From Amphiura filiformis (lineage: Eukaryota > Echinodermata > Ophiuroidea > Amphilepidida > Amphiuridae), in assembly GCF_039555335.1 (NCBI RefSeq), contig NC_092628.1, positions 36,044,965-36,108,964 of the forward strand: DNA of 64,000 bases. Reading direction: 5' to 3'. Of this stretch, positions 8,557 through 62,897 are shown one piece after another. Numbering within the stretch: the stretch's first letter is position 1; each line of letters starts with the position of its first letter. The notes beneath the pieces were generated by a model. It had not been told where the DNA came from. It made no database searches and saw only the letters and a list, made by a program, of their open reading frames with translations. A program made the translations under genes and the position numbers.

Positions 8557-10958
8557 GGTCGAATCCAACGAAAAGTGTACATGGCATGTTCAGGGCCATA
8601 ACTTAAAAGTATTAATCAATTGGCATTCGGTTTTGTATTGTGTTTATTCGCCTTGATCATACGCTTCGCGCCATATATAATAAGACCCCTTCTGTGAAAA
8701 ACTTAGACACAGAGACCCCAAAACATGCTATTTTTACCCATTTTTTCAAAATATTTCTTAAAGTATTTTTAAAAACATATAAATCAGTTATGAAAAGAAG
8801 TCATTGGATTGAATCTAAATTGATTTCCTGAAAGGTGTGTATTCAAAGATTGCCTGTTCAATTTTTCACATATTTGTACATAATTATGAATTTTTGTGAT
8901 AATTTTTGAGTGGTATTTTTTACATTACCTACGAATACAATTTTTCATAGCACTAGATATATCTTTAAAAAATGGAAATCACTAATAAATGCGCAATTGA
9001 TACAAGCTTTGATATGTCCAATACTGAAATGCATTGCATTCGGACATCTTTATTATTGTGTTTAGCTGCCAGAAATTCTAAATGGCACAAAGGTAGGTTT
9101 GGTAAAAAATATGCATTACCTCCGAATACATGTTAAAAGCTGTGCCATTTCCACAAAGTGAGAGAATAGTAAACAATAGTTAAGCAATAGGTGCAGGGTA
9201 ATACACTCTTTATTTCTACCAAGTTTCAATAGCCTGCGTTTAAATATTTCTGAGATGTCAACAATAAAAGCAAGTATTCGTAAGTAAATTTCGGTAACCG
9301 AATGTTACCTACGAATACAATTTGACATCATGACAGTATTGTGAAACACCGCCATTCATGCCAATGCCCATATTGGTACATAACAAAGGCCTGTATGTTT
9401 GCTATCAAATCATATGTCAATGAAAGTTTCGAATTCACATACATGCCCACCATGCAAAACTGAATACGGCTTAATTGGTGAAAAATATGTACTGAAATAG
9501 ACGACGGTCTGCTCATTTGAAAGAAAAATCAGAATCAAAGAAGATTAGAAGGGGATAAATACTTGGATTTGTCAACTGTCATGTGTGCTTTATTTTAAAT
9601 GTTTACCGACCTTCTGGTTTCTGAGTAATTTGTGTCCAAATTGATTTATTCGAAGGTAACTTTTGACGTTTTTGCTAAGGTTACCTACGAATACCATGGA
9701 AAAACGACTGTTCTCATTGTCTCATGATCTAGACAACACATTGATGGACCCTGGTATAAAGCTAATTGTAGTTGCCCTCACACGAAAGGCCACAAGACGT
9801 AACTGACTCCAAGATGGACTTCACAAGTCTACAATAACGGTTTTAAGCGATTTGTGTGCAATTAAGCAAATTAAAGTCACTTTAGTGCCTTTGTTTCTTA
9901 CTTCAATCCTCTTTCAACCGCTGTGAACCGACATTATTAATACATGATAGGGTCTAAAGTATCAATAAACGCACATAAAGAAAATAATACATTCAAAGTG
10001 CTTTATAAAATGAAGTTTTGATTGCGATATCCACCAAAAGTCTAATTCTTACCTACAAATACTGAAATGTTACTTACGAATACAGCATAATACATGACAT
10101 GTGCAATGAAGTGTCTCTACCAATGGAAATTAATTGTCAAAAACTTTAAGCGGTACCCCAGGACCCATATACGGATTCATTCAACAATTATTTATTATGT
10201 AAAATTGCTGATTAACTACTTGTATATCAAAATGAAGTGGTCAAAAGCATCAAAATGTTTTTGATCTAAGGTAATAGCATTTATTCATTTGGACGTACCA
10301 TCTGAAAGAGATCTAAAAACTACCATTGTATTAATACATTACCATAATAGCAAAATTTAAACCTCTAAACTCAATATAGATATTGTTAAATCGCTCATGT
10401 TACCTACGAATACCCGGGTTTCTTCACCTTTTCATTGTATAAAGCGTTAGGTGTATGCGTATAATTCCTAATATTCTTGAAAACATATATCCTACTCGTT
10501 CTAATACAATGTGTAAATTGATTCATACTAATTTGATAAATAAAATACAGAAACTGACCTAAACTTCATTTTCAAAAATAAACTAGCATAAATTGACTAA
10601 GATCATATTGATCGCGTTATAAAAATATACACATATTTTCTGGTTGAGCTAGCATTTTCCTCACACCCTGTGGTCTACTTTACACGAAAAAAGTGTTAAA
10701 AGGAATATTCCATTTGTTTTAGGTTGATTAGTATTGCGATAGTGAAAGCATCCTAGTGGTATTCGTAGGTAACATTTGGTTTTGATATCACATTTACTAT
10801 CACACGTCCTGGATTTATTTTTCAAGATTAGTAATGGCACTTTTGGTTCCTATAAGGCCAATATGTCATCAATCAATGGGCAAAAGGAAAAATTGTGGAG
10901 ACATTTTTATTTCGGACTTTTATTTTTGGCCCGTGGACACTTTTGGTTGGATTCGACC
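8557..10958. mobile_element. Element E1: 2.4 kb, TIR GGTCGAATCCAAC, TSD AGGT, about ten TTACCTACGAATAC motifs
   Basis: The left end GGTCGAATCCAACGAAAAGT and the reverse complement of the right end agree at about 25 of 28 positions. AGGT is duplicated at 8553-8556 and 10959-10962, and an empty site exists at 7331-7334. The body has no long ORF but carries the word TTACCTACGAATAC, or one- to two-base variants, at about 8925, 9116, 9274 (reverse), 9305, 9646 (reverse), 9681, 10049, 10070, 10400 and 10759 (reverse). I saw none outside E1 except related words in E3. The TIR matches E2 and E3. It is a non-autonomous DNA transposon; the superfamily is not assigned. Confidence 0.85.
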
Positions 10959-10962
10959 AGGT

Positions 10963-12085
10963 ACTCCAGCCTAAGCGGGAGTATCTCCTGAAAATAACCC
11001 AGCGTCGAAATATACATTAACATGATTAATATAAATTAATCAATAGTAATCAGTGTTGCCAAGAATTACGTATACTTGTTCGACGTGCAATCGCGCAAAA
11101 ATCGGTCATATTATGCTTATGTAGCGATTAAATGGGGAATTATTTTCGTCCCAAATACACCTTAAAACTTGGTAATATGCAACACCAGGGAAGTGCGTTG
11201 AAGTGAAACTAATAGGATTTCTTTCATTGGAATTGGTAATCTGATAATTGCTTCAGGCAAAATTGCCAGACTCAAATCTATTTTAAATGTATATTATTTG
11301 AGAGAGTGGGGAAGATGAGACGCGGAGATGATCTGGTGGAGGAGAGGAGAGGAGCGGAGAGGAGAGGAGAGGAGAGGAGAGGAGAGGAGAGGAGGGAGAG
11401 GAGGAGAGGAGAGGAGAGGAGATGATGATGATGATAGTGATGGTACTGATGTTGATGACAATGACGATGATGATGTTGAATAAATATGACATGGTATGAC
11501 AATCAATTGTTAATCTGACAATTGGGCCTATATTTCAAAGTTTTTACAGAAAATTCAACCTTTTCATTCGGATTGGCATTTTGTCACATTACATGTGAAT
11601 CAGTTTACCAACATCAAAGGCCTATCGGTATTAGAGGATATTAAAGCGAGCGAAAGGGGCGCTAGACCACTAAAAACACCGGTCATCCACACACTGTGGG
11701 TGTTCCATTCTTGTCTTATCCAGACAGGCATGCAGGTATCTACCTATTGAAATCAGCTGATTGGTACTTCAATGAATTCAAGGAGCAGATCAATTCACAT
11801 AAATCCCTTGCGTTTTCGTTTCTGAACAATAGAGCTCCCGAAACAGAAAAGATGAAACGAGGGTTAGATTGCCCACTTCAGGCGCCAGTGTTGCATATAA
11901 TTGACTTATTCAACCTTTATTGACAGACATAAGTGTGATTGACAGCACCTATTATTACCTCTTGAAATGAGAAGCATGATGCCCCAAACGTAACAATGAA
12001 GTCAACTTACACACCATCCCACTTAATCCCTTGCGTTTGTGTTTCTGAACAATAGAGCTCCCGAAACAGAAAAGATAAAACAGCA
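10963..12085 (+). repeat. Repeat mosaic continuing past E1
   Basis: 10963-11302 is the continuation of the sequence interrupted by E1 and matches 7335-7672. 11868-12085 matches 6790-7015, including the CTCCCGAAACAGAAAAGAT end. No genes were seen. Confidence 0.6.
11334..11440 (+). repeat. GGAGA purine minisatellite followed by GAT repeat
   Basis: This is a run of GGAGA units (11336-11421) followed by GATGATGATGATGAT. All reading frames across it are low-complexity and are not credible proteins. Confidence 0.85.
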
Positions 12086-12928
12086 GAAACAGCAGAAATT
12101 AAAATTGTGAGTGTGGTCGTGGTATCAATGTTACGTCTGCATAAAAAATTTTCTATATCTGCTGTAATTTGGGCACTGACTACCATTATAAAGGTGTTTC
12201 TAGTTGCACTGTGTGTATTGTAATTTAGTACCCATTATTAATTTGCATATTTATTTATTTAAGTGTTGGAAAAATGTAAAAAAGAGAAATGCAGACGTAA
12301 CATTGACAAGGTGTCAATGTCATGTCAACATGAGACATTTTTGATCATATTTTTGTTAAATTATAAGGCTTACATAATTTCAAACGTTCATAAACACTTG
12401 CACACCCTTAGATGAATGCTATATTAAACAATGGATTCAAATGTATTGATACTTTTAATGATCTAGTCCATTAACACACTGTGTCCCAACTTGATGGAAT
12501 TATGACACTCAACAAATGATGAGGTATCATGTAAGATGCCGTGTCCATAGCTGTGCAGAAGAAGAAGCCTAACAACATGAACAATATTCAGCAACATGCA
12601 ATTTCAATTTGAAAGTGAAGATTGGATCGAATATTCAGTCTTTTTTATTATGTGCATGTAACTATAAGTTAATTCATATATTGAATAAAGTATCATGCTT
12701 TTTACAGCAAGTGGATGGCAGGAGCCATTTTTTAATTGTACAGGGAATTGGTCATTTTGAAATCACTTTCATGCAGTGAAAAGGCAATTGTTATGCAAAT
12801 ACTGATTTCTGGGCAGACAAAAGTCAAGTACATCAGTGCCTAGACATAATTGTTAAGATTTCACATTTTTGGTAATATAATCATGGCATGCATGATTTTG
12901 GAAAAGAATTCACACTTTTTCCACACAA
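12086..12928. other. AT-rich sequence downstream of the DCTPP1-like gene
   Basis: No ORF or repeat structure was resolved. It may include the 3' UTR of the - strand gene ending at 13262; a reverse-strand AATAAA near 12648 is the nearest possible polyadenylation signal I noticed. Confidence 0.35.
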
Positions 12929-13203: not shown

Positions 13204-13261
13204 TGATGCACATTTGTTCAATGCTGGTACGTGCAGAAACATGTTATCTGTAGGGCAGGTT

Positions 13262-16400: not shown

Positions 16401-19400
16401 GGGTGTTGCTTCTAAAATAAATATACATTTAAATATTTTTTAATTTATTTTGTTTTCCTGGTGATTTATAAAATTAAGTGGAAGGAAGGGAACTTATATA
16501 TGAGTTATATAAAACAAATATTGAATGTTTCATTCGGTGCAATATGAACTGTTCCATTCAACTCAGCAAAGCCTTGTTGAATGGAACAGTCCATATGTGA
16601 CCCCTCGGCACAACTGAGCCCTGAAGTCGCCAATCATCATTTTTGAGATATTCAACCAAAATATTCTGCTTGAAATTAGCTTTAAAATGATGTATATCAT
16701 GTCTATAGTACTTGACATTTAAGTAGTGAAAAATCAATAAAACAGTCAATAAATCCTTTGTTTCCTATTGTTTATTGTTAAGTTCGATGGAGCATATCTC
16801 AATAGTGGCACTGGCGACATCCGGGCTCAGTTGTGCCGAGGGGTCACATATTTCACCTCATGGAAATATTCTTACCATTGAACTCATAAAGATTCAATAT
16901 TTGTATACCAATTCTGCTAGACCTTTGTTATTTTTCTATTTATTTGGTTTTGTAATAAATAGCAGCTAACTTAGCCACACTGGAAGTCACACAGCATGCA
17001 CAGGGCCCCATGCAGATTTCAGGTACATTGTACATGCCTCATTTAAGACATCACAATATGATATTTCAGAAAAGATTGCATATAAATCAATATTAAAAAT
17101 CAAAGAAATTGGGCAGATTTTGTGAAAACTTTGTGCCAGGTATTAAATGTAGGTTTGAATCCAAGCATCTGCCAAGATTTAGAAAGACTTGTGTTTTTAT
17201 TCAGATGTATTTCTCAAGCCGCGGTTTCTAGGTAAAATGACTAGTGGCACTTTTCTGAAAATGGGATGAACAAAGTTGATTGTCTTACCTGAGACGAATA
17301 TACCTATAATTCGTCTCAGGTCTTCGCAGTCCAGTAGTTTGAAAATTCAATGGTCACCAATAAATTTCTTTTTTGTATGTTTACTTGTTTATTTCTTTGT
17401 CTTTCAGGAAAATATTACTTTGAAAAATTGAGTCGCTTCATAAGGTAATTAGTAGAGCCATTTGAATATAGCCCATTTTGTACACAAAGTATAGGGGAAT
17501 TTATAACTATTGTGCTCAGGCTCCCTGTAGCAATGGTGCAAGCATACAATATCAATGCATATAAATGAATTATACTCACAATAGTTCAGCCACTTCCCCT
17601 ACTTCTCCCACCTACAAAAGAAAAGAAAAAAAAAATGTTGCTAATTAACTATGGTGGTTTTGACTGGGGCAACAGTTTTCCTAGTCAAATCAGAGTTTCT
17701 CCTAAAATCTTGCTGTGGTTGCATGGTCAAAAGGCCATATCTTTATTTGAAATGAATATTTTATAATAAAAAAGAATATTTTCCACATAACTGATTTGAA
17801 ACCACTGACCTCTATACATGGATAGCGGGCTTGCACGTAATAGGATAGTTGCCGATTGAAACCACTATGGCTTTTTGCCCTCACCAATATGGTAGAAGGT
17901 CAGAGAGAACAATACCACTTACCTGTTCGTGGTATTGATTCTTTTGTACTCCATGCATTTGCATGTCTTTTGGAGGATGATTTAAACTTCTTTTTTTTTA
18001 GGCCGCCTTCGGAAGCGAATTTTTTTTTTTTCAATTTCAATTTTAATGTACAACTTTATAAAGAGTTGTGTGGGAGATTGTTTTTTTACTCATCAGTGAG
18101 GTGAATTTTTTTTGCCCTCACCAATAAGGCGGCCAAGTGGTTTCACTTTTTCAGTCGCTGCCCACTATCTATGTATAGATGTCAGTGTTTAGAACCATCA
18201 AAAAAAAAAAAAAAAGAAAAGAGTTGTCTTGGAACTGAATACTGGAAGTCTCATCTTATGAAACCAACTGATTTGGAATAAATGGGAGTCTTATATGAAA
18301 CTGAATAAGAAATTGTTGGCCAACCAAAATGGGGAAAGGAACAAGCATCATGCTTATATACTAATCGTGTTTGGCCACCCGTCCCTATACCTTTGTACAG
18401 AGGTTTTGTACAGCGAGTATAGGCGACGGGTGGTAAAACACGATTAGTATATAGTGTCTTGGATATCAACGAATTTAATTAGCAACCGCCCGGAGGGTGA
18501 GAAAAGGGGATTTCTTTTGGGGTGATATTTATACCAGCAAAAGAGGGGCTCGGTAGTTTTTTGGGAAGAAGGTTAAGCAAGAAGGAACGAGTGATCTACG
18601 GGTGGAGAAAATTCTACACATTTTCGCAGATTTTTAATCACCCATGTTTTAGTTAGGCATTATAGACCTATAATGCTTGAAATAAATCATTTTAAATACT
18701 TACAATGTTTAAAACGTGTCTATTTTCGATAACAGAATAAACCTAAATATGACAGAATGTCACATACCTATTTTGAAAATATAAAAATCATTTAAATAAA
18801 ATTTTAAAATAAATTTCTGACTTTAATCCGTTTTAAATCTGATCAAAAATAATTTGTATTAATCTTGATACTATCCAAGACAATTATATGCAATGGAATA
18901 AATCTAAATATTACACAATGCAGCTTTAATCTAGTTTAAGTATCAAAATAGATATATTTTGACTTTAATCCGTTAAAAAATAAAACAATTTGGTTAGTAT
19001 GAAGCTTGATACTTTCCAAGACACTATATACTAATCGTGTTTCACCACCCGTCGCCTATACTCGCTGTGTAAAACCTCTGTACAAAGGTATAGGGACGGG
19101 TGGCCAAACACGATTAGTATAAAGTGTCTTGGATAGCATCATGCTTATATACTAATCGTGTTGGCCACCCGTCCCTATACCTTTGTACAGAGGTTTTATA
19201 CAGCGAGTATAGGCGACGGGTGGTAAAACACGATTAGTATTATAGAGACTAATGAATCATCTTGGTCGCTACTTGTCCTTTTTAAGAGGAATTTTATTTC
19301 TGACATTCATTCGAGGTCATTCAAGGTGATTTTATGTTATTACTTTTTTTCAGTAAGCTAGGGGGTCAAATTTATTGATGACGTCATCGGGTGGTGAAAC

Positions 19401-21340
19401 ACGATATTGCCAAAACCCGGAAGTGAACCAGAAGTCAGTGTTTCTAGTTCATAGTTCGTCATTTTAGCGTGTGTTTTTAGTTTACCTAATGATTTTAACA
19501 GGAATTATCGTTCTAAAATTGACCTTGAATAAACGCCCCCCCCCCTTGGGAAAATGTAACGCCCTGGGGGCATTTATTTGACTAAATACGGTATGCAAAA
19601 TTGTCTTGTTTGCTATGCTTGCTTAGGGAGTGTTCATAAATACTTTGGTGGGGGGGGCTGGAAAATATTTTTTTTCATGTCGAAATTTTTTTAACCCCCC
19701 CTCTTCGCGAACCCAAAACTTTTGGACCCCCTCTTAATGGACCTAAAACTTTTTGACCCCCCCCCCCTCTAGGTTCAAAACTATTTTGACCCCCCCCCAT
19801 CATAATGTACCATTCTACTAATTCAATTCTACTACCATTCAAATGACACTAATGATACTAAAATTTGTATTCAAGTGCAAATGAAATTGTACGCATGTCA
19901 TTGATATAAAATATGTGGAATTGTGGAAATGTTTTAAAGTAGCACGCTAAAATTTTTGCCATTTGGAAGCTAAACAAATGAAATTTGATGTAAAAGTGGA
20001 TTACATACGTGCGAAGTGCGCAAAAATTTGTACTTTGGGGGCTAAAATGGCCACATATGCATATGGGTTATCGACCCACATATGAGCTTAATTTGGTCAG
20101 AAACACACATACAGGCGTCAACATTGGAAGCGCGCAAAAACAAGACTATTTTAGCCCAAAATACAGGGGCGTAGCCAGTTTTCTTGGTCGGGGGTGAATA
20201 AAATTTCGGGGGCACAGACGGGATAAATAAATTGCAGTTGCAAATACATATACCGGTTTTGTTTTTTAGAGAGACTGCCATGTATTTGAGCTTCAAAAAA
20301 GGCTTTATTGGGACAAAACGCGTGCAAAAATTGTGTTTTTCGCCCACGATGGGATGAAAATGCCTTTATTGTGACAATGTGCGCACACATCGTGCAAACA
20401 TTTTGTATTTTACACTATTTTGGCCCATGATTGGGTTGAATTTATATGGAAAAGGGTCTCCTTGCTCCTTTTCTTTACCCTCCAGATTTTCTCTTTCATT
20501 TTTTGTCAGAGGGGCACTTTTCTCTTTCATTTTTTGTAAGGGGCCCTTCCGCCCCCTGTCTACACTACTGCCGAAATGGTGTGTTTTGCTATTAAATTGA
20601 TGGGCCAGTTCGTGTGATCGCGAAGCGCAAAATTTTGCAATTTTACCCTATTTTACCCTAAGATGGGAACATTAGCGCCCACAGCGCGAGAAAATTTTTT
20701 ACCCCCCCCCCCCCCTACGTGCCGAAAAACTTTTTAACCCCCCCTGTTCATACACCCAAAACTTTTTTAACCCCCTATTCAGAACTCCTAAAATCTTTTG
20801 ACCCCCCTACATATTTTCCAGCCCCCCCCCCACCAGAGTATTTCTGAACACTCCCTTACTTCAGCTATCTAGAATCTTGACTATAAGATCCAAAATTAAG
20901 CTTGTGTTAGTTGGGTGGGGGGGGAGGATTTGTTGGTATATCAAATGGAGACTAGTTTTGGAAAAGTAATCAATAAAAATGCACACTTGGAATATTTGTT
21001 TTTGTGACTTTCACAGTACTTGCTTATCCCAGCAAACACAAAACATTTTACAAAAAAAAAAAATAAAGGGTATAAAACATTTTAATAACATTAAACATTC
21101 TATGATAAAATGTATGTGAGGATTGACAAAATATTTTAAAAACGTTTTCATGACCTGTATAAAACCTAACATTTTGACCAAAACCCAAACGAGTTTATAA
21201 TGGGTTTATAATATTTTTAAAACATTTTAGCGTTTGCTGGGATGCACTGAGATACACTAACCATTGCTAATAAGACATTTCTTGGTGCATGAAATTGATC
21301 CCAATCTCTCTCTTCTATAAATTTCTTCTGCAGTTGTCTT
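13262..21340 (-). CDS. DCTPP1: dCTP pyrophosphatase 1-like (MazG-fold), partial, four exons
   Basis: Exons on the minus strand are 21340-21262, 17611-17580, 15327-15293 and 13452-13262, all with AG/GT borders and consistent phases. Together they give 111 residues, against about 170 in the human protein. DCTPP1 hydrolyses dCTP and modified dCTPs to the monophosphate plus pyrophosphate and so cleans the nucleotide pool. The visible family signature is the helix with EERDWDQFH, then GEVGEVAELFQWRGE, then QELSDVLLYLVDLAERC. The EVGE and ELSD glutamates and aspartate are the Mg2+ ligands of the family. The C-terminus KYTEYE mirrors the vertebrate KYTEL. The exon with the start codon, upstream of 21340, was not recognised. 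Confidence 0.9.
13669..13925. mobile_element. MITE with CCTGGGGTCCGTTTCA inverted ends
   Basis: The left end CCTGGGGTCCGTTTCACTAA is mirrored by the right end, whose reverse complement starts CCAGGGGTCCATTTCA. The interior has repeated AACTTAC/GTAAGTT words in both orientations. It lies in the last intron of the DCTPP1-like gene. Confidence 0.7.
14165..14265 (-). repeat. tRNA-derived sequence (pol III A and B box), probable SINE head
   Basis: On the minus strand an A-box-like TGGCATAATCGGATAGTG is followed about 60 nt later by a perfect B box, GGGTTCGAGTCCC. The arms do not form a normal cloverleaf and the spacing is too long for an intronless tRNA. It is more likely a SINE or tRNA pseudogene than a working tRNA. 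Confidence 0.5.
14520..14650 (-). repeat. Dispersed repeat, inverted relative to 37590-37700
   Basis: The block AAGCCTCGAAAATT to GGGCATTGGGTGA reads on the minus strand here and on the plus strand at 37590-37700, with high identity over about 110 bp. It contains the word GGGTCTTTTGTGTGAGAGCC. Confidence 0.65.
15293..15327 (-). CDS. DCTPP1: DCTPP1-like 35 nt micro-exon: (F)QWRGETKIGLP
   Basis: The acceptor TGTTTTCAG and donor CCAG|GTAACC bound 35 nt, giving FQWRGE, conserved across DCTPP1 proteins, and the start of the loop before the ELSD helix. Split codons at both ends join in frame. Confidence 0.85.
15328..16548. other. DCTPP1-like intron, no resolved features
   Basis: This is intronic sequence without credible coding or clear inverted-repeat structure. 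ORFs of 70-100 codons occur on both strands but have no recognisable protein features. Confidence 0.4.
16549..16589. repeat. Hairpin CTGTTCCATTCAAC
   Basis: The arms CTGTTCCATTCAAC and GTTGAATGGAACAG are perfect complements around a 13 nt loop. The hairpin abuts the MITE at 16593. Confidence 0.75.
16593..16851. mobile_element. MITE with ATATGTGACCCCTCGGC ends
   Basis: The left end ATATGTGACCCCTCGGCACA, continuing through ACTGAGCCC, is the inverse of the right end to 16851. The arms stay complementary, with gaps, for about 60 bp (TTTGAGATAT versus ATATCTCAA). It is intronic in the DCTPP1-like gene and has no ORF. Confidence 0.8.
17288..17324. repeat. Small hairpin CCTGAGACGAAT
   Basis: CCTGAGACGAAT is mirrored by ATTCGTCTCAGG over a loop of about ten bases, close to the 32 nt exon of the DCTPP1-like gene. 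It could be a MITE remnant. Confidence 0.6.
17580..17611 (-). CDS. DCTPP1: DCTPP1-like 32 nt micro-exon: VGEVGEVAEL
   Basis: The acceptor CTTTTGTAG and donor TT|GTGAGT bound 32 nt that encode VGEVGEVAEL plus the first two bases of Phe. This is the Mg2+-binding EVGE motif. Phase fits both neighbouring exons exactly. Confidence 0.85.
18359..18449 (+). mobile_element. 91 bp palindromic mini-element, copy A
   Basis: The ends TACTAATCGTGTTTGGCCAC and GTGGTAAAACACGATTAGTA are inverted repeats of about 33 bp around a 25 bp core, CTTTGTACAGAGGTTTTGTA. Copies B (19029-19119, opposite orientation) and C (19150-19239) are nearly identical. Flanking TA-rich bases suggest a TA or TATA target. Confidence 0.75.
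18815..19025 (+). repeat. Diverged tandem duplication between mini-elements
   Basis: The blocks GACTTTAATCCGTT to CTTGATACTATCCAAGACA and GACTTTAATCCGTT to CTTGATACTTTCCAAGACAC lie about 140 bp apart in direct order. The last words match the flanks of the 91 bp elements. Confidence 0.6.
19029..19119 (-). mobile_element. 91 bp palindromic mini-element, copy B
   Basis: This is an inverse-orientation copy of A. Its flanks CCAAGACACT and AGTGTCTTGG are themselves inverted, and the right flank of copy A matches them. B may therefore be the core of a longer palindrome, or A and B the two ends of a 0.7 kb element. Confidence 0.75.
19150..19239 (+). mobile_element. 90 bp palindromic mini-element, copy C
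   Basis: It has the same orientation as copy A, and the CATCATGCTTATA left flank is shared with A. A half-site, GGGTGGTGAAACACGAT, lies at 19390. Confidence 0.75.
19626..20855. mobile_element. Harbinger-like non-autonomous element, TIR GGGAGTGTTCA, TSD TTA
   Basis: The left end GGGAGTGTTCATAAATACTT is mirrored at the right end (TATTTCTGAACACTCCC), and the match extends into a G or C run and CTGGAAAATAT. TTA flanks both ends (19623-19625, 20856-20858), the 3 bp target type of PIF/Harbinger. Near each end the phrase ACCCAAAACTTTTTGACCCC is repeated three to four times in the same orientation. There is no transposase ORF. A smaller repeat with GGGGCGTAGCCAG and CTACACTACTGCC ends is nested at about 20163-20575. 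Confidence 0.75.
21028..21241. mobile_element. Short CCCAGCAAACAC MITE
   Basis: The termini CCCAGCAAACACAAAAC and GTTTGCTGGG match the MITE at 3268-3958, but this copy is only 214 bp. It sits in the DCTPP1-like gene, 20 bp from an exon edge, next to the splice donor. Confidence 0.75.
21262..21340 (-). CDS. DCTPP1: DCTPP1-like exon: RQLQKKF...EERDWDQFH...LLAM
   Basis: The acceptor reads TTTATTCCAG and the donor ATG|GTTAGT. The 79 nt begin with one base completing a split codon and encode 26 residues. They include EERDWDQFHAPRN, the most conserved N-terminal motif of DCTPP1. The exon starts 20 bp past a CCCAGCAAAC MITE that sits in the downstream intron. Confidence 0.88.
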
Positions 21341-21804: not shown

Positions 21805-22174
21805 CATACATACCTGTACTACTGGGACTGTGGTACAATATGTACATGATGTACCTGTACTACTGTGACTGTGGTACAATATGTACATGATGTACCTGTA
21901 CTACTGTGACTGTGGTACAATATGTACATGATGTACCTGTACTACTATGACTGTGGTACAATATGTACATGATGTATCTGTACTACTGTGACTGTGGTAC
22001 ATATGTACAATATGTACATGATGTACCTGTACTATACTGTGACTGTGGTACATTTGTACATGATGTACCTGTACTACTGTGACTGTGGTACATATGTACA
22101 TGATGTGCCTGTACTACTGTGACTGTGGTACATATGTACTACATGATGTACCTGTACTACTTTGACTGTGGTAC
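21805..22174 (+). repeat. 40/41 bp minisatellite, left block
   Basis: The unit reads TGTACATGATGTACCTGTAC, then TACTGTGACTGTGGTACAAT, with an optional A. About nine copies stand here. The array resumes at 24755 after element E2. The peptide repeats it could encode are frame artefacts of the satellite. Confidence 0.92.
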
Positions 22175-22178
22175 ATAT

Positions 22179-24754
22179 GGGCAATTCCACGGTAACTCGT
22201 GCTACACTTTATGGCGTCCTTTTACATACTTTGTGCTCCAGCTTTTTAAAATCATTTGATTGGAATCTGTATTTTTTGTATTTTAATACCCAACATTCAA
22301 GGCTAGATCCTCATAGTATTGCTAAATGAATATATCAACTTTTGTATGTATGGGACAGCTGCGAACAAACGGTAACTCGTGCTACGAGCAGAGGACATGC
22401 TAAAAAATCACTCATTTTTATTTTGATTGTGTCCTAAAACAAAAAACATTAAAGCCTAATTGATTATATGATAAGTAACTACTATGCTAAGGTTTATCTT
22501 GGTATAACTTAAAAAGTTTTGTCCCTCATAGTTTTACATTGACTGGCAAAAAACATGGTAACTCGTACTACGGTAACTTCGTGCTACAGTTTGTCCGCCA
22601 TATACAAAATGGTTAATGTTCGTTTAAATGTCAAAGTTTCTTGATAAAAATTCCGCAATGACTGGTATATGATCAAATAACCCAACCTATGTACATATAA
22701 CCAAAGTATACTTTGATATATCCATGATAACCCAAAAATAACCCAATTTATGTACAAATAACACCAATACATTTGTACAGTGCATGTATCAGCATACAAT
22801 GTACCACACACATTACATCCCAGCATTACATATGTATGTACTTAATCCCTTGCTCCATCCTGTTTGGATATTTCATACATTGTAGGGCTTAAATTTCAAC
22901 AGTTAAATTGAACAGTCAACAATTGATAGATTGATAGGTTATTTCACCCTAAATTAGTTCACAAAACTTGTAATGTTCGTGGTTCTTTACAATGATCGGC
23001 TCTGTAAGTTTCTTTAAATTTAAAAATTGCTTTTCGAGGTACCGGTATAGAATGTTTGGTCATCTTTTGGTTGAGATCATTTCCTGTGATTTCCTGCTTG
23101 GTGCATTACTGAATACAGTTTGCACGATTTCAATCACTTCACCTGGAAAATGAGACCCATATACTCAACAACATGAACAAATTTTGTATCAATCATACAA
23201 ATCTCAGTATCAACTTGAAATATCACTGTGGCTGTTAGCTAGTCTCAGGATTTCCAGTATCTATATTTCTTGGGCTAGATTTTTTTTTTTGGGGGGGGGG
23301 AAACTAAAATTTTGGTTGCATCATTAGTAATGGGATATAATTTTACTAGAGCATTTTTTTTTAGAGACTGTACAAGTTTAAGTCTTCGAGCTTCAAAAAA
23401 GGGACTTTATTTTGGTAAAAATTTGGTATATTTACACTATTTTGGCGCATGATCAGGTGGAACTGGCTCCTTGAACCTTAAATTCTCTATCTTTGCCTTC
23501 CATATTTTTACTTCCATTTTTCTGTCAGAAGGGCATTTTTATCTTTAATTTTGGCCCCCACACATGTGTGTTTTCCTGGTTGTTTCTTTGTTTGGCTGCT
23601 CGGGCGGAAGCAAATTGATTAATCCACTGTGCAGCTTCAACGCAATAATCGATCAACTACATACTTGGTATACTATGCCAGATAGATAGGTATGGTGATA
23701 GGATATGATGGCTTGATGTGCTGTATAGTTTTGTGTTATGTTATTTGCATATTTATGAATATTAATGAGCTTATTTGCATATTTTGCCTACATTTTCATT
23801 AATCCACTCTGCAGCTTAAATGCATTAATAACAACTTCAAACTTGGTTTGGTGATTGGATATTGTGACCTGATGTTTGTCATGTTATTTGCATATTTATG
23901 AATATTAATGAACTTATTTGCATATTGCATATCATTTGTATTTACAAAACATTGTTATTTACACACTTTTGAGTGAGTGCCACCTTAATTACAAACCGCG
24001 TAATTCTAGTTTGCCAGGGGGAAGTCTGCCCCAACTGCCCCCCCCACTGGCTACACTACTGCTAGAAAGTTGTTACCATGGTTACATAAATGCATATTCA
24101 TGCAGTTGGGAGATACTTCTATTGCTGCCAAGTGGTATTTTACATTACCTTTGCTGGTACAGGGGGAAAGTGGGCTATGGTAACTCGTGCTACATCGGTA
24201 ACTCGTGCTACTGGTAACTCGTGCTACAGTTTTTAAGGGGTCATTATTATGTGGTGGATAGTGTTTTGTATTTCAATTTCTTATTTGTATTCAAGGTACT
24301 ACTAGTAGAAGGAAAATAATAAGTGGCATCAATTAAATTGCCAACATTTTGTAAATATATTAAAAAATGCATCTCTCGGTAACTCGTGCTACACCATATT
24401 TAGCGTTATGAAAACACAATGAAAGGAAAAAATTAGCGGGGGTTATTTAAAATGTGATGGATATTTCTTGAAGACCATATTTCATAGATATAAAATGTAT
24501 CAAATTAAAAAGAAAAGTGCCCCTGTTTAATAAAATAGGCCCACTTAGAAAATATCTAAGTTAAACAGGATTTTTCCACTAAAAATACACTCTCAGAAGA
24601 ATTTTTTTTTTTTTTAAACAAAATGTTAGAAAAATGCAGAAAAAAGTTTAGAACTTGAACATTACATCTGTTTGGAATAATATGAAAGTTAAAAGAAATA
24701 CATAGAGGCAATTTTATTTTTTTGAGTCATGTCCACTTTTGCTTGGAATTGCCC
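22179..24754. mobile_element. Element E2: 2.6 kb, TIR GGGCAATTCCA, TSD ATAT, eight GGTAACTCGTGCTAC motifs
   Basis: The ends GGGCAATTCCA and TGGAATTGCCC are flanked by ATAT (22175-22178, 24755-24758), and minisatellite units on either side carry the intact CATATGT site. The right end, read inward, is GGGCAATTCCAAGCAAAAGT followed by GGACATG. It is clearly related to the E1 end. The word GGTAACTCGTGCTAC, or a one-base variant, occurs at 22191, 22371, 22557, 22572, 24179, 24197, 24213 and 24378, always in the same orientation. The motif-free middle contains later nested repeats (about 23270-24063). No transposase was found. Confidence 0.85.
23601..23940 (+). repeat. Nested tandem duplication with TTATTTGCATATTTATGAAT
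   Basis: Two diverged copies of a unit of about 180 bp each contain ATTAATCCACT-TGCAGCTT and TTATTTGCATATTTATGAAT. The octamer ATTTGCAT occurs four times. The unit lies in the motif-free centre of E2, next to CTGGCTACACTACTGC, the end of a repeat also seen near 20565. Confidence 0.6.
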
Positions 24755-25545
24755 ATATGTACAATTGTACATGATGTACCTGTACTACTGTGACTGTGGT
24801 ACAATTGTACATGATGTACCTGTACTACTGTGACTGTGGTACAATATGTACATGATGTACCTGTACTACTGTGACTGTGGTACAATTGTACATGATGTAC
24901 CTGTACTACTGTGACTGTGGTACAATATGTACATGATGTACCTGTACTACTGTGACTGTGATACAATTGTACATGATGTACCTGTACTACTGTGACTGTG
25001 GTACAATATGTACATGATGTACCTGTACTACTGTGACTGTGGTACAATATGTACATGATGTACCTGTACTACTGTGACTGTGGTACAATTGTACATGATG
25101 TACCTGTACTACTGTGACTGTGGTACAATATGTACATGATGTACCTGTACTACTGTGACTGTGGTACAATTGTACATGATGTACCTGTACTACGGTGACT
25201 GTGGTACAATATGTACATGATGTACCTGTACTACTGTGACTGTGGTACATATGTACAATTGTACATGATGTACCTGTACTACTGTGACTGTGGTACAATA
25301 TGTACATGATGTACCTGTACTACTGTGACTGTGGTACATACAATTGTACATGATGTACCTGTACTACTGTGACTGTGGTACAATATGTACATGATGTACC
25401 TGTACTACGGTGACTGTGGTACAATATGTACATGATGTACCTGTACTACTGTGACTGTGGTACATATGTACAATATGTACATGATGTACCTGTACTACTG
25501 TGACTGTGGTACATATGTACAATTGTACATGATGTACCTGTACTA
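24755..25545 (+). repeat. 40/41 bp minisatellite, right block
   Basis: About nineteen copies of the unit described at 21805 are present, with some copies carrying an extra CATATGTACA. The two blocks were one array before E2 inserted. Confidence 0.92.
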
Positions 25546-26153: not shown

Positions 26154-26333
26154 AAGAACACATATGTGACTCGTTCTGACGAAACCAGCAACAAGTCGCA
26201 TTTTTAACATTTCATGATCTGAATAAAAATGTAAGCACAGGACAATGTGTGCTTACATTTTTATTCAGATCATGAAATGTTAAAAATGCGACTTGTTGCT
26301 GGTTTCGTCAGAACGAGTCACATATGTGTTCTT
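26154..26333. mobile_element. 180 bp near-perfect palindrome (foldback MITE)
   Basis: The arms of about 80 bp start AAGAACACATATGTGACTCG and end CGAGTCACATATGTGTTCTT. They are essentially perfect complements around a loop of about ten bases (AGGACAATGT). The near-identity of the arms suggests recent origin or conversion. No ORF. Confidence 0.85.
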
Positions 26334-27550: not shown

Positions 27551-30500
27551 CTGAAAGTTAAATCCAAATGATGGGTTTTTGCATGAGTACTGATATAAAA
27601 GCTTGAGGCTTTTGTTTGGACTTTACAGAATGCCATGGGAGATTGAGAAACTCCACATGTGTGTGATGGTCTTCGTGCTTCAAAAAAGAAGTACATTTTA
27701 ACCAGTTTATGTAGCCAATAATTGAGCTATTTTAATACAGCAACGAAGGAGATAGCGAGCAAACAAATGTGCTCTTCCTCATCAAAGGATTAAAGTTCTT
27801 CTGTCGAATTGCTGGAGTTTGCTGGGTTTGTGAAGGCCACGCATCTGTCAAAAACAGCGGAGCTGTGTTAAAGAAACCTGTTCCCTGGAAAAAGAGTGAT
27901 TGGTGAAAGAAACACCATTATTGGAGAAAGCAGCGCAAGGAGATATATTGTGGAGAAGACAAGTAATAGGAGCAAGCAGCATCATTTTCATGTGAGGATT
28001 TCATACGCAAGGATATTTATAAACGCAAGTGTACACTGGACTTCGCTGATTTTCGCAGGACAAGTGAATAAGGATATATTACATCAGTCGTCCAGAACAT
28101 TAACATTGCAAGAATTCTAGGATCACCAACAAGAAGACCGCTGGTTAAGTACTGATAGAATAAAACTGTGATTGTGTGATTTTATTGTATTGCAATATTG
28201 TTGTTATATGTACCAAGCATACTTTATTTTCAATTAAAGACTTAGATTTTGTTAGCGTAATCAAACAGTGTATTTGTGTTGTGCATTCGTGTGAGTTCGG
28301 GTAAAAGGTGATTTTGGCCTCGAGTCAAGTGCGACTCGTAACAAAAATTGGGGGCTCGTCCGGGAAATACACTGTGAAAAAGTTAACATTCATTTAATGA
28401 GTCTTGAAAGTGAAAGTACAGTACGGCAGAGTTCAAAGCAGAAGAGTTTCTTGAAACTATAAATTGGGAGAAGTTTGATGAGTTAAAGAAGCCTGATTTA
28501 TTGGCATTTGCCAAACATTATGACTTGAAAGTAAAACAAGCTACAAGAAAGCAAATAATCTTGATTGATGTTTTGGTCGGGGAGGACATTTTTGATGAAT
28601 CCTATTTGGAAGAGAAACTTGAAGTAGAAACTGAAATTGGTGGGGACTCAGCATTTAAGTTGAAAGAGTTGGAAATTCAATTAGAAATTAAGAAAATGGA
28701 AATGGACCAAAAGAAAATGGAAATAGAAATGGACCAAAAAGAAAAACTGGAAATGATCAAGTTAGAGAATGAAAATAAAGAAAAACAAGAAAGGCTAGAC
28801 ATTGAAAAACAAAAACTAGCAATGGAAGACAAAGCTCGCCAAGACAAGATGGCGCTTGAACACCAAAAGTTGGAACTTGAAGAAAAGAAAAACAAACAAA
28901 GCTGCAAATAGAAGCACATTTGAAAGAAAAAGAAATTGAGGAAAAGTACAAGTTTGAACAAGAGAAGTTGGCAAAGCTAGGTGACAAATACTCATCAAGT
29001 TTCTCCTCAAAGTCAGGGTTTGATGTTACAAAGTATGTAAAGCTTGTGCCTAAATTCAAAGAAAAAGAAGTTGACGAGTATTTTCAACATTTTGAAAAGG
29101 TAGCTACAAATTTGAAATGGCCTCCAGAGCATTGGACCCTACTGTTACAAAGTAGTTTTGTGGGGAAGGCCAGGGAAACTTACTCAGCTCTACCAATAGA
29201 GAAGTGTAATAATTATAAAGAAGAAGTCAAACAGGCAGTTCTCAAGGCCTATGAACTGGTGCCTGAAGCATACAGACAAAAGTTCAGAGATTCAAGAAAG
29301 CAAGCAGATCAAACCCATGTAGAATTTGCTAGAGTAAAAGAACAAATGTTTGACAGGTGGCTTGGGTCAAAAGAAGTCAAAGATGATTTTGGCCAACTTA
29401 AGCAATTGGTTCTTATAGAAGAGTTCAAGAAATGTGTCCATGTTGACATTAAAACCCATTTGGATGAAAGCGCTAGCAAAATTAAGACGCTAAACGAGGC
29501 GGCGACAATGGCGGACGACTATGGCTTAACTCACAAATTGAATGCGAGTAGATTTGGTCATAACAGAAGTTATTCAAACAGGTTCAGCCATAATCAACCT
29601 AGAACAAATTAGGGTGGTACACAAGAAGGGAGATCTCAGTCTAATTCACAGCATAGTGCTGGTGGTAGAGGGACCCCAGGGAGTTCAGGTAACAAATCAA
29701 AATTTGGGACTGAATTTAAATCCAAAGTAACTTGTACTCACTGTAGTAAGAGACCAGGGCATACAATGACCCAGTGTTATTTCTTAAAAGGCAGACAAGA
29801 CGCACACAAACAGCAGCCATCTACTAGTAATACTGTGGGATGTGCAGTGTCACTTGAGTCAAAGAAAAAAGTCAGTCAAATCAAGAAACAAGAATTCCCA
29901 TAAAAGGGAGGTGAGACAGACAAGGTGTGTGAAGAATTTGAACCATTTGAGGGAGTAGTATCACTTGGTGAGAATGGTAGTCCAAAGCCCATTAAGATTG
30001 TGCGAGATACGTGTTGTGCACAGTCTATGATTCTGGAAGGAACTTTGCCCTTTAATGAGGATAGTTCAGCTGGTGATGCTTTGATCCAGGGTATTGGGAT
30101 GGAAATACTTAATGTACCTCTCCACAAAGTTAACTTGACATCTGACTTGGTTTCTGGTCCTGTAACCATAGAAGTTAGACAGGAATTACCAGTCAAGGGA
30201 GTGTCCATGTTGCTAGGAAATGATTTGGCAGGGGGAAGGTTTTTCCTGACCCAATAGTCACAGATAAGCCCTGTTTGCAGGATGATAATAGTGAGGAAAG
30301 GGAGATATTTCCTGCATGTGCACTGTGCAGTGACACGGGCAATGAGTAAGAAGGCCTCATTAGAAACAATTGAGGACAACCAAATTGATGACTTAGGCTA
30401 CAATTTGGAAGACACATTTGTGTCACAGTTGAATGAGAAAGAAGATAAACTTCCTTCTCCTGGGGATAAAAATACCCCTAAAAATGACACAGCCTCTGAG

Positions 30501-33500
30501 CATGAACAAATTGGGGATACATTGAAAGACCCATTAAGTCATGACAAGCTGATTCTGGAGCAACAAAATGACCCAGAACTCAAAGAGATCAATCAAAGGG
30601 CATTGACCCTAGAAGAAGCAGAACAAAATTCTGTCTGTTTTTACAAACAAGATGGTGTGCTAATGAGAAAATGGTGCCCCCCTGATGTACCTGCCGATGA
30701 AGAGTGGAAGGTAGTCCACCAAATTGTGGTACCAAAAGTATACCACACTGAAGTAATTAACATAGCACATGACAGTCCAATGGCAGGGCATTTGGGTGTT
30801 AAGAAAACTCATGAAAGAATTCTGAGACATTTCTGGTGGCCCACACTCAGAAAAGATGTTTCTGAATATTGCAAAACATGTCACATATGCCAAATAGTAG
30901 GGAAGCCAAATCAGAAAATACCTCCTGCTCCATTAAGCCAATTCCAGCCTTTGATGAACCATTTAGTAGGGTTATTATTGATTGTGTAGGCCCCCTACCA
31001 AAGACTAAGTCAGGTAATCAATACCTTCTGACAATTATATGCGCGTCAACACGCTTTCCTGAAGCCATACCCTTGAGAAATATTAAAGCAGTGACTATAG
31101 TGAAAGCTTTAATAACCAAGTTCTTCACATTTGTGGGGCTCCCCAAGTCCATACAGTCAGACCAAGGATCAAACTTTACTTCTGAAGTATTTCAGCAGGT
31201 CATGTATCAATTAGGTATAGAACAGTATACCTCAAGTGCTTACCATCCAGAATCACAAGGTGCACTCGAAAGGTTCCACCAAACTTTGAAAAACATGATC
31301 AGGACATACTGTTTGGAATTTCAGAGGGACTGGGATGAGGGAGTACACTTGTTGTTGTTTGCTGCTAGGGAAGCTGTTCAGGAAACTTTGGGATTAGTGC
31401 GTTAGTGTTTGGACACACAGTGCGCAGGCCCTTAAAATTGTTGAAAGAAAAGTGGCTCAATGAGAAATCAGATATCAATTTGTTGGATTATGTCTCCAAT
31501 TTTAAACATAGGCTTAACAGAGTAACTGATATCGCCAAAGAAATCTTGAAACAGGGTCAGGCCAAAATAAAACAATGGAATGATAAACATGCCAAAGAGA
31601 GAGTGTTCAAACCAGGTGACAAAGTTCTAGTACTGTTTCCAATTCCAGGACACCCATTACAAGCCAGATATCATGGTCCATGTGAAGTAGAGTCAAAAGT
31701 GGGTGAAGTCAATGCTGTACGGTGCGACCATTTTAGGCGCATTGGCGACTAGATTTTTGCTGATGGCGACTAAATATTCAATCCCTGGCGCCAATGGCTA
31801 CCAACTGCTGAAGCTTTTAATCGCCAAAAACAAAACATGTATGTAATGTAGCATTCAAGAGTACGAATGTATGCTATGAATATGCATAATCATGTCTCAA
31901 TGGGGACTTCCTGGAAAACATATAGGCCTACACTGTACATGCTGCGTAGGAAGTATGTAGCGTTCAATGGGAATATGTAGATCAGAGTACAGCAGCTATG
32001 AACATTCAACACACGTGGCTGTTCAGTTTACGTTGGCACCTCAGATTTTTTACCTGGGAGCAAAATTTGGGCGCCTAAATTTATAAAGTTAGGAGCCACT
32101 CCCTCATTTCAAATATATAGTTTTGGTTTCTCTATTGTTCAGAAACCAAAAATCAAGGGATTAAAATGTGGAGATGAACTGGTATGCAATCATAACACTA
32201 TTGTGCTGGGAGGACACAAGAGGGTATATATAATCAAAAGTATAATGGCCTATAACCATACGTATATAATAGCCTATTGTGCTAACATTTTCATTATCGA
32301 TATCTATCAACGCTGGCGACTTTTGCCGTAGGTGGCACACTTCCATGACACCATAAAATTACACCCGAGTTCCGAGATTCGTTTGATAAGTTATGCATAG
32401 ACATCGTTGAGACATACAGGATGGATATATACGAGACCTAGGCCTACATGTAGAAATCATGTGCATATATTGAGGGGTGGGGGGGTGTTTTGTTTATTTG
32501 TCTGAAATATAAACGATGCATGATGATGTAGATGATTTGATTATGAATTAGATTATTCCCGGAAAGCACAACCCATACCTCTTACCTATGTTCCTCCGCC
32601 ACCTATATATAACCTCCTCCCTCCCCCTCCCCACACTCGATATCGACTCTTCCCTATTATTCCACTCCACTCTTGAGCCCCCTCTCCCCTCCTTCCTTCC
32701 CACTTCCAATGCTCTCTCCCTCTGTTTCTCTTTCTCCCTTACCCTTACCCCCTCCCCCTCACACACACACACATACCCTCTTTCCCTGGCGATCTCTTCT
32801 ATCTCTCTCTCTCTCTCTCTCTATTCTCCAATAAATAAATTGAATAAAAGTTAGTTTAAACCAGCTTTCTATGATATTGATCTTCCGTCATGCGACATGC
32901 ACATAAATAGAGTTGTGCATAATAGTGATTATATCAATGAAGTCATAATCTGTCAAGTGGCTATTGTAATGTCTGTGGAAATATTTCGATGGTCTATATA
33001 TTTTCACAGAGAAATCAGCTTAGGCTAATTCGTAGTCTCAAGTCAATGCTTTCAAACTAAATCAATGCTTTCAAATGTAGACTGCTTTGTTCGACTTCTC
33101 TGCTCGTGAATATTGCACTGCGAAATTTAAACATTTCTTTTGTATACTTAGAGTAGGTAACTTCAAATCAAATAATTTTACGATCCACACCACTTATAAG
33201 AAACTGAAACCAAAACCGAAACTGACTGACACAAATGTTCGGTTTTAAACAAAAGGTAGAAACAATGAGTTCGATATCTTATGATTCAAGAGGTTTGGCA
33301 GGACAATAGGAAACCACGTGACCAAAACCAAAACCAAAACTAAAACTATATATTTGAAATGAGGCAATGGCTCCTCAATCAGTTTTTGCACCGTACAGCA
33401 CTGGGTGAAGTAGATTATATTATCAAGACTCCTGGTAGACGCAAGAGCAGGCAGTTATGCCACATAAATATGCTCAAAGAGTATGTTGAAAGAAGTGACA

Positions 33501-48070: not shown

Positions 48071-48076
48071 TTGCAG

Positions 48077-57404
<9,328 letters not shown>

Positions 57405-57494
57405 TGTGTGAAAAAAGAACTATATTAATAAGTGAAAGCTTAGTTTATATATGTGTGGAATTAAGAAATTGCAGCATGGTAATTACAGTTGTAA

Positions 57495-57500
57495 AATAAA
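57495..57500 (+). terminator. AATAAA polyadenylation signal of NDUFS8
   Basis: AATAAA lies 90 bp after the stop codon, and a T/G-rich stretch follows (TGTTCTGTC). Confidence 0.7.
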
Positions 57501-57504
57501 CTGA

Positions 57505-60500: not shown

Positions 60501-60798
60501 TAAACTGCGGACTTACCTCCAACCGATGGACAGTCCTCAGTCTCAAACTGCTGCAAAAGACCTCAAATGCATGCTAAATGCATTATAGTGATATTTGCTC
60601 AAAACTGTTGACCATATGTGTAAAAACTGCAGTCAGCAGCACTTATAAATATTTTTTCCCTGCAATGAATCACGTCTTAATAGTCCGTTGGTGAGCAACA
60701 GGCGATTGGTATTTCACCGAACGCAAGAAAAGGAATCTGATTGGCTAGAAATCGATGGCTAGATCGCTCAGTGATGAAGTGCAAACTCAAATGTAGAT
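57505..60798. other. Intergenic region downstream of NDUFS8
   Basis: No exon was recognised. ACAGGGTGTCCCAAAAAAAA at 58740 looks like one terminus of a DNA transposon, but no inverted partner was found. Short frames on the minus strand (for example near 57600 and 59560) lack any protein signature. Confidence 0.4.
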
Positions 60799-62897
60799 GG
60801 TCAATTCCAGCCAAAGCGGGACAAAATTCTCTCTGGGGGCCATTTTGAAAATGTTTTCCTTTTCAATTCTAGACTTATCAAATGAGACGATCATATCTAG
60901 TGAATCATCAGGTGGAAGTGCCATCGGATTGAAAAATAACTTTTCTTGCTAGACCAAATAAAGTGTTAAATGCGCATATGCATGTTACCCACAATTCAAG
61001 CCTTTTTCACCTGTTGTACGCCATAAAATTTCACTTTCTTTAATATCTTTCAATATTTTATGTGTGACTCATATACACTAGAAATCGGTGAAGACTTTGA
61101 GCGTAAAATAGAATTTATTACATATATTTACAGAGCACTTTTTTGGTTATTACAAATTTTAAGAAAGAACCAGGTGTACAGTTAAGATTGTGTCAATTCT
61201 TGAACTCTTTCCAAAGTGGCTGTCATTTAACATTACTGTATTATTTGAAGATTAGAATAAATGCTTCATATAAATATAAAGTTAGATTTTGTATAGCGTC
61301 GCAGGGTGAGGAGCTCGGACGGAGTCGTGGGTAACAGCGTCTGGAAAATAGCAATCCTATTAATTTTTTTTAAATAAAAATAAAAAATACTCTTCCGTAT
61401 GTCAATAATTCAGGCTGCAATGGCACTAAAATGAATTTTAATCAAAATACAAACTACATGGAATATTTAGAATGGACCATTATGGCATTTTGGGTATAAA
61501 AATGTTGAGAATAATGAAGTTGCCAAATTCAAATAGACAGAGCAAACAGTTTTATATTATTATTTTAGTAAAATCATTCCATATTTTCATGCAGCAATAT
61601 TCTATTAACTCATGTTTGAGAGTTCCTATGAACTAAAACACTATCAATACATTGTTAACTATAATTTAAGTAGGGATTCGTGGGTAACCAAAATGTTCGT
61701 GGGTAACACATATTTGACGGTATGTATTGGTAAGCGGCAAAATAGAAAATATTACAGAAGGTTGGAAACCATCATGCGGTTATTCCTCCATTGTGTTTCA
61801 ATGATTCCCGTTTCTCTAACCAATTGCATTTACCCAGAAAATGGTAATTTAGGATAATCAATCAAAACTTCATGATACAGCTTCAGTATACCTTCAAGAG
61901 GACGCTATTAAACAGGACTGTTTTGGAACCTATTTCGCATGTTTTCAAAATGTTAAGATGCATAAGAAACATATAATTTACGAGTAAATCCTTGGATTAG
62001 TGGTAACGCCAATTCGTGGGTAAAGCTATAAGTACTATAGTACCGTTTGGGGTTTGCGTTTCTTAGGTGCATAAACTTTAAGTACTGTAAAAATTATAGC
62101 ATACGCATGGCTTGAATATGTGCTGATTTAAACTTAAAATAAACAATCTCCTTGTTTTTCAAGGTTAGCATCTATTCGGGATTCGTGGGTAACAAAAGTT
62201 TAAACCGTCTTAGATTCTTTTTTAAAGCGGTGAACGTTTTTTTACGACCTACAAGTTTAACCGCTTGTCAAACTAAATTCAGTGTCCAAAGTCATTAAAT
62301 GTTAATTTAAGTTATGGCAATTATATTTGCTGGACTCGTGGGTAACAGTTGATACGTGGGTAACGTCAAATTTGATTTTATGGAATTTTATGGGTAAAAC
62401 GTATTTGCATAAAATAATCACTTGGACCTCAGAATTATAGAACAAAACTTCGTTTCATGATATAGTCATTTATGGCATATTCACTTAACATTTTTCAGAA
62501 CGATCATTTTATTTTTGATACGTGGGTAGCAAAATTATTAGCCAAATTGACTTAATGGCCTCTAGAGTCCACAAACTTGGGTGGAATTCAATCGTTTTAC
62601 ATATGATGAGAGATCATGCAAACGTCTTTCTAACGGTAATAATTTCATTTTGATTGAAGGACATTCAATGACATATATAGTGCTTTATCTTTGAATTCGT
62701 GGGTAACGCCAATTCATTTAAGCCATCATAACTTGTCCCGTGGTATGACTTGCTAGTAAAGGCCTATATGCACAAAGAGAGCACATTGGACGTGACATGA
62801 TATGCTCCATCAATAACGTGATTTCGTTTATTAATGACATTTTAAAGTGGAAAGTTAAAAAAGAGAGAATTTTGTCCCGCTTTCGCTGGAATTGACC
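60799..62897. mobile_element. Element E3: 2.1 kb, TIR GGTCAATTCCAGC, TSD AGAT, about eleven TTCGTGGGTAAC motifs
   Basis: The ends GGTCAATTCCAGCCAAAGCG and its inverse agree at about 35 of 36 positions. AGAT is duplicated at 60795-60798 and 62898-62901. The word GATTCGTGGGTAAC, or a close variant, occurs at about 60984 (reverse), 61321, 61675, 61695, 61995, 62011, 62180, 62333, 62351, 62517 and 62693. There is no long ORF; the longest frames are short and carry no domain. The high TIR identity suggests recent activity driven by a transposase encoded elsewhere. Confidence 0.85.

Follow-up and report, generated by a model that had tools for sequence, protein, structure and literature searches.

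In a 64,000-bp window of the genome of the ophiuroid Amphiura filiformis (NCBI RefSeq assembly GCF_039555335.1, contig NC_092628.1, positions 36,044,965 to 36,108,964 of the forward strand) we found three complete, gene-less DNA transposons (E1, E2 and E3) and a fragment (E4) with related ends. Each complete element carries 8 to 10 copies of its own word of 13-16 bp, the words lie on a grid that is anchored at the element ends and has a roughly nucleosome-sized step, and they differ in a concerted manner from one relative to the next. We estimate a probability of roughly 0.4 that the words are arrays of sites for a putative element-encoded DNA-binding protein acting at the chromatin level, within a non-autonomous family mobilised in trans. 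An initial annotation of the window had described the elements and their words; it overlooked that the words are regularly spaced from the ends and that those of E1 and E3 are akin.

Three complete elements with related ends

The coordinates, related ends and 4-bp target duplications given in the initial annotation for the three complete elements were confirmed. E1 (8557-10958, drawn on the minus strand so that most of its words read forward) is flanked by AGGT (8553-8556 and 10959-10962), E2 (22179-24754, plus strand) by ATAT (22175-22178 and 24755-24758) and E3 (60799-62897, plus strand) by AGAT (60795-60798 and 62898-62901). Inverted-repeat ends together with a target duplication, by which non-autonomous terminal-inverted-repeat transposons are recognised, are thus present in all three. 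The inverted repeat of E1 matches at 25 of 28 bp (8557-8584 on the plus strand, 89% to 10931-10958 on the minus strand; GGTCGAATCCAAC[CG]AAAAGTGT) and that of E3 at 35 of 36 bp (60799-60834 on the plus strand, 97% to 62862-62897 on the minus strand; GGTCAATTCCAGC[CG]AAAGCGGGACA). The GGGCAATTCCA ends of E2 form an inverted repeat confined to the outer 11 bp (left end 22179-22189, plus strand; right end GGGCAATTCCAAGCAAAAGTGGACATGA, 24727-24754, minus strand), because in the left end a word starts one base further in. Searching the 64 kb with the end pattern GGNC[AG]A[AT]TCCA yielded seven matches, namely both ends of E1, E2 and E3 and the right end of E4. This fragment (50048-50773, plus strand; left limit uncertain and set by eye) had likewise been reported to end at 50773, and its right end, GGGCAATTCCACACAAAAATGACACA on the minus strand, agrees with the family pattern.

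Since all three duplications are of the form A..T, the elements may alternatively end in T...A and carry a 2-bp duplication within an ANNT target, a reading based on three cases. E2 is inserted within an array of a 41-bp minisatellite (TACCTGTACTACTGTGACTGTGGTACAATATGTACATGATG, 21811-25521), which it splits and whose TACATATGTAC-like stretches may have been the source of its ATAT target. An imperfect palindrome in E4 (50314-50549, 74% identical to its own reverse complement over 250 aligned columns) is perhaps a nested fold-back element.

As the initial annotation had stated, no transposase is visible: the longest of the 45 open reading frames (ORFs) of at least 45 aa inside E1-E3 has 101 aa, and a Pfam scan of the longest 20 of the 45 gave no match above the curated cut-off. 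Apart from the ends, even permissive scoring revealed no convincing homology between the bodies of E1-E3, the best alignment being 43 bp between E1 and E2 (E=0.007). An exception to these unlike bodies is found in E2 and E4, which match over 51 bp (E=0.0003) spanning a pair of words.

Each element is filled with its own word

The E1 word, GTATTCGTAGGTAAC, occurs in 10 copies within 2 mismatches, seven on the minus strand (8924-8938, 9115-9129, 9304-9318, 9680-9694, 10048-10062, 10069-10083 and 10399-10413) and three on the plus strand (9274-9288, 9646-9660 and 10759-10773). The copies at 9274 and 9304 and those at 9646 and 9680 are inverted pairs, those at 10048 and 10069 a direct pair. The E2 word, GGTAACTCGTGCTAC, has eight copies, all on the plus strand: seven within 1 mismatch (22191-22205 within the left end, 22371-22385, 22557-22571, 24179-24193, 24197-24211, 24213-24227 and 24378-24392) and one with an extra T (22572-22587), the second of a pair with 22557-22571. 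Between them lies a word-free middle (22588-24178) with no copy of the E2 word within 3 mismatches; it is probably one or more nested repeats, whose boundaries were not found, and part of it (23417-23552) is 70% identical to 20396-20533. The E3 word, ATTCGTGGGTAAC, again has 10 copies within 2 mismatches, of which only the weakest (AATTGTGGGTAAC, 60984-60996) is on the minus strand; the plus-strand copies are at 61323-61335, 61676-61688 and 61695-61707 (a pair), 62012-62024, 62181-62193, 62334-62346 and 62352-62364 (a pair), 62518-62530 and 62695-62707. Orientation is therefore mostly uniform (8/8 in E2, 9/10 in E3, 7/10 in E1), and neighbouring words form direct or inverted pairs 15-34 bp apart, adjacent words occurring only as pairs or triplets. 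The 8-11 copies of a 13-15 bp word previously ascribed to every member were thus found in the three complete elements, while E4 has only two copies of its own word, TGTCACTCGCATTAC (50066-50080) and TGTCACTTCCATTAC (50081-50095), both on the plus strand.

Chance or simple background would be the most trivial origin of such words. The best 12-mer at 1 mismatch is present 10 times in E1, 7 times in E2 and 8 times in E3, as against 2-3, 2-4 and 2-3 times in dinucleotide shuffles (60 per element), none of the 180 shuffles exceeding 4 copies. In 43 control windows (2300 bp, half-overlapping, located outside E1-E3 and including E4) the top count ranged from 2 to 4 in 36 windows and was 5 in four, 6 in two and 7 in one. 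This last count, which equals that of E2 and speaks for a background origin, belongs to a AACGTTTT-type word found mostly in a different element at 3266-3960, an inverted-repeat element (TACCCAGCAAACACAAAACGTTTT...) seeded with AAAACGTT/AACGTTTT (10 and 8 overlapping matches) and a second type of word-rich element in the window. At up to 2 mismatches no copy of the E1, E2 or E3 word exists outside E1-E3 in the window, which bears out the earlier remark that the words were not seen outside the family; at 3 mismatches there are 0, 1 and 9 outside copies, the expectation from shuffles of the whole window being 1.0, 0.75 and 15.0. The comparison of counts inside and outside the elements with shuffles, which the initial annotation had proposed as a check, consequently places the words far above background within the window, and together with the absence of outside copies it refutes chance there, leaving this explanation a negligible probability.

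Furthermore, we scored each word with a model built from all copies but itself. The weakest word reached 15.8 bits in E1 and 13.4 bits in E3, whereas the best non-word site inside the element reached 5.6 and 6.4 bits, respectively; in E2 the copy with the extra T scored only 10.5 bits, as the model does not allow for a gap, and all further sites scored at most 7.3. Outside E1-E3, the E3 model found its best site, AAAGGTGGGTAAC, in E4 (50254-50266, 14.4 bits) and a few others of 9-12 bits, with 12.1 and 11.4 among them; single weak sites therefore do occur in 57 kb, which is the other observation that a background origin could call upon. More intermediates would be expected of a decayed satellite; the overall pattern looks like that of sites kept while their flanks turned over.

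The words lie on an end-anchored grid

To describe the spacing, words up to 40 bp apart were merged into one cluster. Distances between clusters are 339, 362, 326, 169, 162, 175 and 177 bp in E3, which corresponds to single or double steps of about 170 bp, and 191, 174, 374, 395, 340 and 360 bp in E1, single or double steps of about 184 bp; the steps of E2 (180, 193 and 182 bp) are compatible with such a grid. In a post hoc test corrected for the scan of periods from 120 to 260 bp, periodicity was found at 170 bp in E3 (R=0.97, P=0.0002) and at 184 bp in E1 (R=0.93, P=0.005), with P=0.0008 for all sets jointly, including the E2 halves. Under a null model with a minimum distance of 140 bp between clusters the values were P=0.0013 for E3 and 0.017 for E1, and the joint value was reached in none of 4000 simulations. 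The grid is also anchored at the ends: setting aside the word inside the left end of E2 (centre at 19), the first internal cluster lies 374, 192, 199, 369, 190 and 197 bp from the six ends, i.e. 190-199 bp from four and 369-374 bp from two, or about one or two times 189 bp (P=0.0002). The words thus occupy an end-anchored grid whose step is roughly that of a nucleosome, a likeness of length to general nucleosome repeat lengths.

The period itself, and the observation that the best pair of word-masked units is above most shuffles (P=0.03 in E3, 0.075 in E1; the null being base shuffles of AT-rich DNA), could also mean that the elements are tandem arrays of 170-185 bp units which have decayed, with the words as the best-kept part. 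Some E1 copies moreover have common flanking bases (19/19 bp at 8925 and 9305), a 42-bp module is repeated in E2, and an empty slot of the grid, the third of those tested in E3, is only 10 bp away from the 6.4-bit site, the strongest non-word site of this element. The mean similarity of word-masked units, however, was not above that of shuffles (P=0.13 and 0.145; 0.13 and 0.23 in a first run), no site of intermediate strength is present in E1 or E3, and neither the five empty slots of E1 nor the other two of the three tested in E3 contain anything resembling a decayed word. We therefore consider a decayed array quite improbable.

Words change together between relatives

The initial annotation regarded the words as specific to each element. 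Their differences are indeed fixed, position 9 being occupied by A in all ten words of E1 and by G in all ten of E3; the words are, however, not independent of each other, as those of E1 and E3 are variants of one word, TCGT[A/G]GGTAAC, and that of E2 also contains GGTAAC and TCGT, in a different order. The match between E2 and E4 allows one pair to be followed between relatives. In both elements (22557-22587 in E2, 50066-50095 in E4) the first word has CTCG and the second CTTC, followed by AGTTTGTC[CT]GCC, and the two look like the same word pair by descent. At four positions of the 15-mer (1, 4, 10 and 12) the two words of the pair show identical differences between the elements, and the pair members were therefore rewritten largely alike. 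At position 11 both E4 words have A, as does the first word of E2 already, and the second E4 word is either one base shorter than its E2 counterpart or carries two substitutions. Such like rewriting is the outcome that matching to a changing protein would give, as would copying between words. The lock-and-key relation suggested earlier is accordingly backed on the side of the lock by fixed and concerted word differences, including those of this pair, while the key would be a binding protein that we did not find.

GGTAAC and TCGT are present in the consensus of the E1, E2 and E3 words, so one protein family could read them all, and the partner might be a host DNA-binding protein, either a repressor or a recruited activator, with the element changing its words to escape or to follow it. 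GGTAAC presumably resembles an RFX half-site and TTCGTNGG part of a CENP-B box. A repressor site, however, should be lost and not kept 8-10 times well clear of all other sites, and at 2 mismatches the words are absent elsewhere in the window; a host partner thus appears improbable.

A putative element-encoded protein as reader of the words

Our preferred explanation is that E1-E4 would constitute one family of non-autonomous cut-and-paste transposons, mobilised in trans via their related ends and leaving 4-bp target duplications, and that the words would be bound by a sequence-specific protein encoded by an autonomous relative located outside the window. One site or site cluster would be bound per step of about 170-185 bp along the element, and as this step is roughly nucleosome-sized, the effect could cover the whole element. 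Each lineage would have its own version of the protein, and with drift of its specificity the words would be rewritten together to match. The putative protein would most likely act on chromatin, holding the element in an open or anti-silenced state and thereby letting the transposase work, like VANC in the VANDAL elements of Arabidopsis.

The words could also be sites used in transposition itself, at which a TNPA-like accessory protein or the transposase joins the ends or compacts the element, the spacing then reflecting looping geometry and not chromatin. The motifs near the ends of CACTA elements vary by family within a species while the terminal repeats are conserved, and TNPA recognises these motifs (PMC2613891). 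One word within the left end of E2, as well as the direct and inverted word pairs 15-34 bp apart, which would suit a dimer, also fit this explanation. The words, however, extend through the whole body, and at five of the six ends the first word is at least 190 bp inside, with no pile-up, whereas the CACTA element Tgmt* has its motifs no further than 159 and 732 bp from its ends (PMC2613891). A role in transposition is hence a real but tentative possibility.

Several observations weigh against the proposed protein acting on chromatin. E1 and E3 do not have one common period (R=0.17 for E1 at 170 bp; P=0.0088, weak, for a common period), and the periodicity test was conceived once the positions had been seen, so that its P values should be read as those of an exploratory and not of a planned analysis. 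No significant agreement of exact word positions was found between elements (lowest P=0.012 in 36 tests), 5 of 12 slots in E1 and at least 3 in E3 are empty, and no clear GC or AA/TT pattern was seen by eye around the words. Neither the binding protein nor an autonomous copy was seen in the window, only three complete elements with one copy each were available, and VANC sites sit in tandem repeats, which most of the words here do not.

In its most specific form, our explanation would make the family an animal counterpart of plant VANC, in which the element's own protein opens it from end-phased words at nucleosome steps and protein and words are re-coded in each lineage; this full combination is unlikely. 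In plants, transposons are documented to counteract silencing in a sequence-specific manner; convergence on this in an animal, by means of a simple address code, would illustrate how chromatin can be opened over kilobases by selfish DNA. The word-protein pairs, matched to each other, would also form a natural series in which the evolution of DNA-binding specificity could be studied. Moreover, the nucleosome-scale, end-anchored spacing leads to a concrete prediction for existing chromatin assays.

Surroundings in the window

Among the other features of the window are two exons at about 55.7 kb and 57.27 kb, which we take from recognition of the sequence to belong to NDUFS8; Pfam found only 4Fe-4S domains, in the first exon. 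A Gypsy-like long terminal repeat (LTR) element at 27568-36312 has two LTR pieces that are about 99% alike, and its integrase domains (30.3-31.4 kb) precede the reverse transcriptase (33.9-34.9 kb). This order is opposite to the usual one and to us is reminiscent of Gmr1-type elements. The best 120 of 1803 matches to a retroelement protein included a top match of 81%, one of 65% identity in a sea cucumber and matches of 55% and 51% in bivalves. A 481-bp piece of an ORF for a reverse transcriptase like that of long interspersed nuclear elements is tandemly duplicated at 48570-49488. Two long hairpins were also found, at 26154-26333 (86-bp arms, 100% complementary, 8 nt between them) and at 56108-56586 (143-bp arms, 98% complementary, 193 nt between them), as well as clustered repeats, both inverted and direct, that contain TATACTAATCGTG and ACGGGTGGTGAA words (18357-19398).

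Comparison with known systems

The P element and Ac/Ds have internal or subterminal repeated transposase sites, clustered near the ends, and target duplications of about 8 bp. The family described here is like them in its repeated internal sites, but its duplications are 4 bp long and its words are not clustered at the ends. A search of IMG/VR with the end pattern gave no match, and with the E2 word it gave 20 stretches, one of them with two copies. Paired E1/E3 words were found in 45 stretches, which were set aside as unrelated without opening the loci, since in 44 of them the matches span 24, 36 or 48 bases and hence recur at 12, 24 or 36, which in-frame coding repeats of FVGN would produce.

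Several superfamilies were rejected by their ends or duplications. The termini here are GGTC/GGGC, in place of the CAC...GTG of CACTA/Chapaev (PMC4079192) and the TGTNR of Ginger (PMC2836005). The duplications AGGT, ATAT and AGAT differ from the TTAA of Kolobok and piggyBac (PMC9587614) as well as from the TWA of a silkworm Tourist-like miniature inverted-repeat transposable element with GGGTCAATTCC ends (PMC2997013). Strings taken from the ends also occur in print, but the titles listed for them deal for the most part with unrelated genes and pathogens. Sola2, compared by description only, likewise combines 4-bp A..T duplications with short inverted repeats (PMC3627910) and because of these duplications is a possible superfamily, though of the three only ATAT fits its AWWT, AGGT and AGAT agreeing just with A..T.

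The initial annotation considered words that fill a whole element and change between relatives to be unusual; such arrays are, however, known from VANDALs of plants (PMC5735166) and, close to the termini, from CACTA elements (PMC2613891). Those of E1-E4 appear to resemble CACTA TNPA sites and above all the VANC sites of Arabidopsis VANDALs. In CACTA elements (En/Spm, Tgmt*) the repeated short motifs also differ between families while the terminal repeats are conserved (PMC2613891); here, however, the words fill the body, the termini are GG...CC and not CACTA, and the duplication is 4 bp as against 3 in Tgmt*. VANC21 binds YAGTATTAY, which is dense and in one orientation across the non-coding DNA of VANDAL21, and brings about a loss of methylation, whereas VANC6 uses other motifs, AGTTGTCC/AGTTGTAC, and the repeats evolve together (PMC5735166). 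In a later study an arms race with silencing by small RNAs was proposed, and Spm TnpA and MuDR MURA also accompany lower methylation (PMC10398659). The present family is like VANDAL/VANC in its many family-specific motif copies in non-coding DNA, mostly in one orientation and changing together between relatives (PMC5735166). It is unlike it in that the words are mostly dispersed and regularly spaced with unlike flanks, while VANC motifs lie in tandem repeats (PMC5735166); its inverted-repeat ends, 4-bp duplications and animal host differ as well, and no VANA or VANC gene was seen in the elements. A VANDAL by anatomy was rejected, as the motifs are not in tandem repeats and the mean similarity of units was not above that of shuffles. 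No animal element of this type was found among the papers listed, surveyed by titles and abstract openings with few subscription journals covered. Thus, family-specific motif arrays in transposons are already known and, as far as that survey has shown, what is new here is the animal case, the dispersal of the words through the whole body and the end-anchored step of about one nucleosome.

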